Shown: positions 48-815 of the stretch, one piece after another
Layout of the letters: every line of letters starts with the position of its first letter
How positions within the stretch are numbered: position 1 is the first letter of the stretch
Assembly: GCA_024635795.1 (NCBI GenBank)
Contig: JAGXIH010000003.1
Location: 62,001-126,000 of the forward strand
DNA: 64,000 nucleotides
DNA from: Salegentibacter sp.
Lineage (GTDB): Bacteria; Bacteroidota; Bacteroidia; Flavobacteriales; Flavobacteriaceae
Direction of reading: 5' to 3'
Notes under the pieces: generated by a model
Seen by the model: only the letters and a program-made list of their open reading frames with translations
Databases searched by the model: none
Told to the model about the DNA's origin: nothing
Translations under genes and position numbers: made by a program

Positions 48-83
48 AAAAAAATCCCCCTGGTTTCGCTATTACCAGGGGGA
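48..83 (-). terminator. Intrinsic terminator / attenuator following Met/Cys-rich leader peptide 2
   Basis: Minus strand TCCCCCTGGT-aatagcgaa-ACCAGGGGGA followed by T-run; 10 bp stem. Confidence 0.85.
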
Positions 84-110
84 CTTGAATTGAACTCTAA
101 ATAAACTAAG

Positions 111-203
111 TTACATTCGCTTCTGGCAATAGCATTTCATGTGCATACACATCATCATAATGGGCATTATCATTTTTTTTGCTATTGACAGGTTGTTACT
201 CAT
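111..203 (-). CDS. Putative Met/Cys-rich leader peptide MSNNLSIAKKMIMPIMMMCMHMKCYCQKRM (30 aa)
   Basis: Direct translation of minus strand 203->111; 9 Met and 3 Cys codons; located just upstream of a terminator hairpin with an alternative antiterminator pairing. Confidence 0.75.
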   Translation of the reverse strand: MSNNLSIAKKMIMPIMMMCMHMKCYCQKRM

Positions 204-218
204 TCTTTCTTTTTTATG

Positions 219-238
219 TTCCCGCGAAGGCGGGAATC
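219..238. repeat. REP-like palindromic hairpin (inverse orientation)
   Basis: TTCCCGCGAAGGCGGGAATC, reverse complement of the 14-33 element. Confidence 0.75.
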
Positions 239-276
239 TTTACTCTTTTTTATTCTTCTTTATTCTTCTCCTTTTA

Positions 277-300
277 GATTTCCGTCTTCACGGAAATGAC
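277..300. repeat. REP-like hairpin GATTTCCGTCTTCACGGAAATGAC
   Basis: Same layout as the other copies with compensatory stem changes (TTTCCGT/ACGGAAA). Confidence 0.75.
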
Positions 301-313
301 TTTTTGTTTTTTT

Positions 314-337
314 GATTTCCGTCTTCACGGAAAAGAC
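314..337. repeat. REP-like hairpin GATTTCCGTCTTCACGGAAAAGAC
   Basis: Near-identical to 277-300. Confidence 0.75.
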
Positions 338-349
338 AAATTATTATAT

Positions 350-380
350 AAAAAAAGCCGCTACGGTGGCAGCGGCTTTT
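350..380 (-). terminator. Intrinsic terminator / attenuator following Met-rich leader peptide 1
   Basis: Minus strand AAAAGCCGCT-gccaccgt-AGCGGCTTTTTTT; 10 bp stem plus T-run. Confidence 0.85.
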
Positions 381-398
381 GCAAATATCTTTTCAGTT

Positions 399-449
399 TT
401 ATGCAATAGTGCGCGCTGCGGAGGCTTTCCACATCATCATACGCATCAT
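399..449 (-). CDS. Putative Met-rich leader peptide MMRMMMWKASAARTIA (16 aa)
   Basis: Direct translation of minus strand 449->399; 5 Met codons in the first 6; immediately upstream of the 350-380 terminator. Confidence 0.7.
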   Translation of the reverse strand: MMRMMMWKASAARTIA

Positions 450-489
450 ATTGCAAATAAACTTGTACATTTCGTTGTTTTGTTGGCTA

Positions 490-497
490 CAAAGATA
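490..497 (-). promoter_or_regulatory. Candidate Bacteroidota -7 box (TATCTTTG) for the leader transcript
   Basis: Minus-strand TATCTTTG matches TAnnTTTG; TTG (519-521) about 21 bp upstream; leader 1 starts ~40 nt downstream. Confidence 0.5.
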
Positions 498-699: not shown

Positions 700-717
700 T
701 CACCGTATAATTTAAAG

Positions 718-815
718 GGAAGGATTTGACTGATTGCAACCCTATATGCACTTAGGTGTATTGAAAAATGCTAAAGCAGTAATACTACTCCTGTTAGCAC
801 CACGTCAAATTCCGC
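718..815 (+). ncRNA. Candidate SAM-I/SAM-IV-clan riboswitch in the metK 5' UTR
   Basis: Closing stem GGATTTGAC (722-730)/GTCAAATTCC (804-813); GCAACC (736-741) and TGCTAAAGC (769-777) resemble the S-box core; internal hairpin ATGCAC/GTGTAT; lies between promoter box and metK start. Confidence 0.6.

Follow-up and report, generated by a model that had tools for sequence, protein, structure and literature searches.

Leader-peptide attenuation is a classical mode of control, in which, as in the trp, his, thr, ilv, leu and phe attenuators (reviewed by Gollnick and Babitzke, 2002, cited in PMC9723704), a short ORF of cognate codons, a protector, an antiterminator and a terminator precede a biosynthetic operon; the same parts recur at the locus described here, the protector consistently in the first of its two units only. 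Among sulfur amino acids, a metL leader has been predicted before metNIQ in Streptomyces lividans, where no typical terminator was found (PMC8079986), and cysteine-responsive polycysteine attenuators are known from mycobacteria (Canestrari, 2020, cited in PMC13236596) and were predicted in PMC1262725 as well. A study of Flavobacterium psychrophilum reports strong clues that leader-peptide attenuation acts upstream of amino-acid operons, with conserved 5' elements that include those of pheA and hisG (PMC9723704). The main text of that study names no met leader, and its Supplementary Table S7/appendix D9, which may list Flavobacterium ones, was not covered here. Our literature search turned up no case from Bacteroidota of a leader that is methionine-rich or built on Met codons. 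Here, we describe a locus at one end of a 64,000-nucleotide stretch of Salegentibacter DNA (the window) at which a tandem ribosome-mediated transcription attenuator very likely governs metY and the genes that follow, with Met-dependent readthrough remaining an inference.

From 497 down to 48 on the minus strand, the locus consists, in order, of a promoter box, leader ORF 1, terminator 1, a spacer, leader ORF 2 and terminator 2. An earlier note made without database searches had placed a promoter box, two Met-rich ORFs and two GC-rich terminators here, and these held. The box (TATCTTTG; 490..497, minus strand) is of the Bacteroidota -7 type, recognised by consensus match only, and lies 27 nt before the leader-1 ATG. 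Leader ORF 1 (MYKFICNMMRMMMWKASAARTIA; 399..470, minus strand) encodes 23 amino acids, five of them Met besides the start Met, and its start and Met run are kept in 30 relatives. The earlier note had read it as a 16-residue ORF from 449, a start that failed and that we correct to 470-399 because the ATG at 470 is common to relatives. Leader ORF 2 (MSNNLSIAKKMIMPIMMMCMHMKCYCQKRM; 111..203, minus strand), which held as first drawn, has 30 codons, nine of them Met counting the start, and is kept in 39 relatives. The terminators, first given as 380-350 and 83-48, held in place with spans revised to 353..380 and about 55..83 (both minus strand). The spacer between terminator 1 and leader ORF 2 is 149 nt long. 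REP-like palindromes (CCCGCCTTCGCGGG and TTCCGTCTTCACGGAA; 16-33, 219-237, 278-297 and 315-334) lie in this spacer and also in the gap from terminator 2 to metY, and related copies occur elsewhere in the genome.

The earlier note had further predicted a minus-strand Met or Cys gene left of the window, and would have been refuted by a gene on the opposite strand or unrelated to sulfur amino acids. The first gene beyond the window is on the same strand and is metY (O-acetylhomoserine sulfhydrylase; 94% to that of S. sediminis, which places the window in or near Salegentibacter), with its start ATG 41 nt outside the window edge (L009) and ~90 nt beyond terminator 2. Behind it follow metX, hom, an Rrf2-family regulator, cysH, cysD and cysN, which we infer to form one operon with metY. 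The regulator (CymR/IscR-like; L009 9831-10262, between hom and cysH) could conceivably add a second layer of sulfur control to this met-cys cluster. To the right of the leaders, metK is divergent and is preceded by a SAM-II riboswitch (710-784, plus strand; 57.6 bits) that is kept in many relatives; the back-to-back metK and metY are thus under two sensing systems.

Each unit contains mutually exclusive pairings, including antiterminators that were absent from the first description and that proved to be present and covarying. In unit 1, region 1 (450..455, minus strand) is the 5' strand of a protector (1:2) stem whose 3' strand is 402..407 (minus strand), i.e., 455-450 pairs with 407-402 and joins the first Met-run codons to the ORF end. 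Region 2 of unit 1 (GCAGCG; 414..419, minus strand), within the end of leader ORF 1, is the 5' strand of the antiterminator and pairs with 374-369 (CGCUGC), a part of the 5' arm of terminator 1 that doubles as the antiterminator 3' strand. In unit 2, the corresponding region 2 (UGCUAUUGCCAG; 123..134, minus strand) pairs with 78-67 (CUGGUAAUAGCG), the part of the 5' arm and loop of terminator 2 that serves as antiterminator 3' strand, and in the window this is an unbroken helix of 11-12 pairs. No consistent protector stem was found across copies of unit 2. Both leaders fold better than their dinucleotide shuffles (z = -3.8 for leader 1 and -5.1 for leader 2).

We compared 80 metY loci, among which both leader types occur in Salegentibacter, Christiangramia, Gillisia, Salinimicrobium, Mesonia and Flavobacterium. 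Counting the window, there are 31 copies of unit 1 and 40 of unit 2, and every one has the leader ORF and the terminator, as well as an antiterminator duplex whose position near the ORF end is constant. In the alignment of unit-1 copies the terminator is 98.1% paired and the antiterminator (419-414 with 374-369) 100% paired, with compensatory changes in 8 cells: C-G becomes A-U in six Flavobacterium copies and G-C becomes A-U in two Mesonia-type copies. As the matching change is also made in the other arm of terminator 1, three strands vary together. The unit-1 protector stem is 95% paired with 12 double-changed cells. For unit 2, the terminator is 98.2% paired with 63 double-changed cells, and the antiterminator is 81.6% paired with 8, in an alignment where two rows have the terminator 3' arm off by one column. 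For all these stems, none of 500 shuffles reached the observed number of double-changed cells. Covariation therefore supports the antiterminator strongly in unit 1 and modestly in unit 2.

Conserved short ORFs might instead encode working Met/Cys-rich micropeptides (e.g., metal- or redox-binding), with the terminators merely ending messages. In favor of this reading, start, stop and Met/Cys richness are conserved. Against it, leader 1 shows no third-position excess of change (0.305/0.284/0.287 for the three codon positions), its C-terminal SAA becomes SAE or TAC exactly alongside the matching change in the terminator arm, and the place before metY or metX is held while the peptide drifts. In one Flavobacterium (L041), moreover, the ORF stops before the end codons and the RNA segment is still there. 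We consider micropeptides very unlikely, and take the RNA pairings located there to explain why the peptide ends (SAA..IA and YCQ) are so unexpectedly conserved. Separately, two Flavobacterium loci (L033, L037) have a small ORF of ~55-60 codons between terminator 2 and metY, ~240 to 70 nt upstream of metY, that the window lacks.

The earlier attenuator reading would also have failed had the Met runs not been conserved; both they and the terminators are kept in relatives. On both strands of the 64 kb we counted 555 ATG-started ORFs of 10-40 aa, only three of which have ≥5 Met and ≥20% Met, and among these three a strong terminator (stronger than -12 kcal/mol) follows leaders 1 and 2 only. In the copies from relatives, ATG is frame-specific: 128 in frame versus 4 out of frame in leader 1 and 259 versus 8 in leader 2, or 387 versus 12 for both. 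Within the sensor zone (i.e., the codons at which ribosome stalling would keep the antiterminator strand clear of ribosome cover), Met makes up 34.8% of codons in unit 1 and 31.7% in unit 2, and Cys 13.0 and 13.6%, as against 2.3% Met and 0.5% Cys in the long ORFs of the window; after the sensor zone, Met falls to 0.4% (unit 1) and 5.4% (unit 2). It could still be argued that the hairpins are ordinary small-RNA terminators and that the Met runs arose by chance in sequence rich in ATG, since terminators are common and REP-like palindromes abound in the spacer. The frame bias and the covarying antiterminators count against this, as do the lack of any further case on either strand of the 64 kb and a target specificity obtained from the RNA model alone. 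That is, covariance-model searches ran without regard to genes, and the family search with the unit-1 model gave 25 hits at E ≤ 4.1e-9, of which 22 lie before metY, two before metX and one at a contig end. This alternative is strongly disfavored and, in our judgment, very improbable.

The attenuator reading additionally requires that ribosomes stall where they leave region 2 accessible. By general understanding the edge of the ribosome footprint can be taken as 13 nt, a value we assumed and measured from the start of the A-site codon. With this footprint, region 2 stays open while a ribosome waits at a starved codon and is masked once it reaches the stop. A Met codon in the A site leaves the region free in 127 of 128 cases in leader 1 and in 247 of 265 in leader 2. 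At the last such Met codon, the predicted antiterminator probability averages 1.0 in unit 1 and 0.99 in unit 2, as computed on transcripts ending before the terminator's 3' arm. Full-length transcripts are predicted by folding to favor the terminator, as would be expected if timing decides. With no ribosome, the antiterminator probability in the window is 0.0 for unit 1, which is expected to terminate without translation because its protector stem ties the ORF end to the beginning of the Met run. For unit 2 it is 0.57 in the window and averages 0.75 over copies, so that the antiterminator is expected to form; because of this prediction and the lack of a consistent protector, the default state of unit 2 is less clear. 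The suggestion in the earlier note that the three Cys of leader 2 also serve sensing held only in part for the window, in that Cys codons 24 and 26 fall inside the antiterminator strand and Cys19 alone is placed as a sensor codon.

The arrangement in series, likewise proposed in that note, held on promoter-box placement. Of 31 loci with leader 1, 24 have a TAnnTTTG box 26-29 nt upstream of it, and none of the 29 inter-unit spacers contains one; one promoter thus appears to serve both units, and polymerase must pass both terminators. Multiplicative or two-input control, as that note envisaged, has not been shown.

We propose that transcription from the one promoter would run through both units. 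With plentiful Met, a ribosome would reach the leader 1 stop codon and cover region 2, allowing terminator 1 to form, and leader 2 may act likewise on terminator 2. With scarce Met-tRNA, the ribosome would halt in the Met run with region 2 unblocked, which would then pair with the terminator 5' arm before the 3' arm is synthesized and so let polymerase continue; both units would have to be cleared before metY. The main signal is inferred to be how much charged elongator tRNA-Met is available, with charged tRNA-Cys probably contributing as well. The gene context, conservation, alternative pairings, ribosome geometry (under the assumed footprint) and series arrangement rest on comparison and are shown, whereas translation, stalling, Met/Cys-dependent readthrough and gate logic are inferred, there being no transcript, ribosome-profiling or growth data. 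One point against the model is that Met shortage lowers initiation too, which could possibly blunt a Met-codon sensor.

The same gene has a different leader in sister genera. Leaders with no SAM-I between them and metY occur at 41 of the 80 metY loci, SAM-I (RF00162) directly before metY with no leader at 37, and the upstream sequence was too short to score at 2. On the metY tree the exchange needs one change only, and thus 41:37 represents one replacement in the sample rather than many independent events. In the window, the metY leader lacks a SAM aptamer (RF00162, RF01726 and others searched), the sole SAM match being the SAM-II element before metK; the leader region has no match to the T-box covariance model, and no Rfam family reaches threshold at the leaders. 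A Phe_leader match there (25 bits against a cutoff of 55) was rejected as chance-level.

That SAM-I serves the same gene in relatives makes SAM a plausible signal, and attenuation might accordingly act through a nascent Met-rich arrest peptide responding to SAM or another metabolite instead of to tRNA-Met charging. Yet residue order is unconserved beyond Met/Cys count and the RNA-constrained ends, and before cysH-cysD-cysN the leader of a related unit shifts to Cys (MRTISGIQILTCCCTMTMCCCNCCCLKLPFLRR), as codon sensing predicts. We therefore regard an arrest peptide as very unlikely and retain codon sensing.

The order-wide search recovered that Cys-dominated leader as the second leader of a unit before DUF2061-cysH-cysD-cysN in another family (L174), and added a unit before cysE-cysK (L172), units near metX in a third family and units before metY in a fourth. 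Another Met/Cys leader stands upstream of a gene that we take to be sulfite reductase-like from reading its sequence, without a profile search (L147). Within the window's own genome, further targets were sought by covariance model only. Between metY and metX in L171 (2491-2615, reverse orientation) lies a copy resembling unit 1 but with no Met run (MKFNICNTFKVAQDNSCGSLIA), which may be decayed or sense something else. Weak unit-1 matches (E from 0.01 down to ~1e-7) are probably mostly generic terminators and are not interpreted; a match at E ≤ 0.01 occurs in 250 of 301 genomes. The four weak matches inspected (L122-L125) have no Met leader. The class-wide search added a single new match (G567), an ATG-rich ORF beside an unrelated gene, which was taken as chance.

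Within Flavobacterium the parts are rearranged. Several have SAM-I before metX, downstream of metY, and in some one unit is lost or moved: L041 has unit 1 alone, and in three (L199, L200, L201) a TonB-dependent receptor gene lies between the units, leaving unit 1 before the receptor and unit 2 before metY. The receptor gene (L199 632-3666, with unit 1 alone before it; same order in L200 and L201) might import a sulfur compound or a methionine source. Two of these loci also have a Cys-ended leader plus terminator (MQEFFKIAIKSQMNKSLQMNKMFNVARICVCVC) before SAM-I and metX (L199 7266-8086; L201 7122-7949; metY orientation), possibly a leader-plus-riboswitch tandem found in some Flavobacterium. A bolder reading, to which we give slightly less credence than doubt, is that the locus is a two-stage, two-input gate of separable modules that fills the role of SAM-I by reading out tRNA charging. 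Under it, unit 1, with its protector stem, would sense Met and be shut without translation, unit 2, Cys-richer in many relatives, would sense Met and Cys, and metY would need both stalls.

As leader-peptide attenuation is itself classical, what is new relative to the classical attenuators is the use of Met (and Cys) codons, the two units in series in Bacteroidota, and the exchange with a SAM riboswitch, though priority in Flavobacterium is open. Met-codon attenuation falls outside the classical examples and would be expected to be awkward, given the effect of Met starvation on initiation. The finding gives Flavobacteriaceae, for which the main text of PMC9723704 treats leader attenuation only in general terms, a mechanism for sulfur-gene control. 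The metL leader of S. lividans is similar in that it is a reported Met leader peptide and has M and C close to its end, but it precedes a transport operon, is leaderless and a single unit, and has no pairing evidence in the text covered (PMC8079986). Mycobacterial attenuators share runs of sulfur amino acid codons in short ORFs upstream of sulfur genes, but are Cys only, with no conserved terminator hairpins found for them in PMC1262725, whereas intrinsic terminators and antiterminators covary here. The tandem attenuators of Salmonella mgtCBR resemble this locus in that a single leader holds two short ORFs, each with its own stem-loop, but they sense ATP and proline (PMC3641672), whereas here both units are Met-coded and precede a methionine gene. 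Finally, SAM-I (the S-box) occupies the same place before the same gene in sister Flavobacteriaceae and meets the same expectation of leader-RNA control of methionine synthesis, but its aptamer senses SAM and is missing before metY where leaders are present. With a widespread, well-conserved serial pair on one side of this divide and a SAM riboswitch on the other, the system allows direct tests of how a metabolite aptamer is traded for a sensor of tRNA charging, and of the benefit of a second, like gate.
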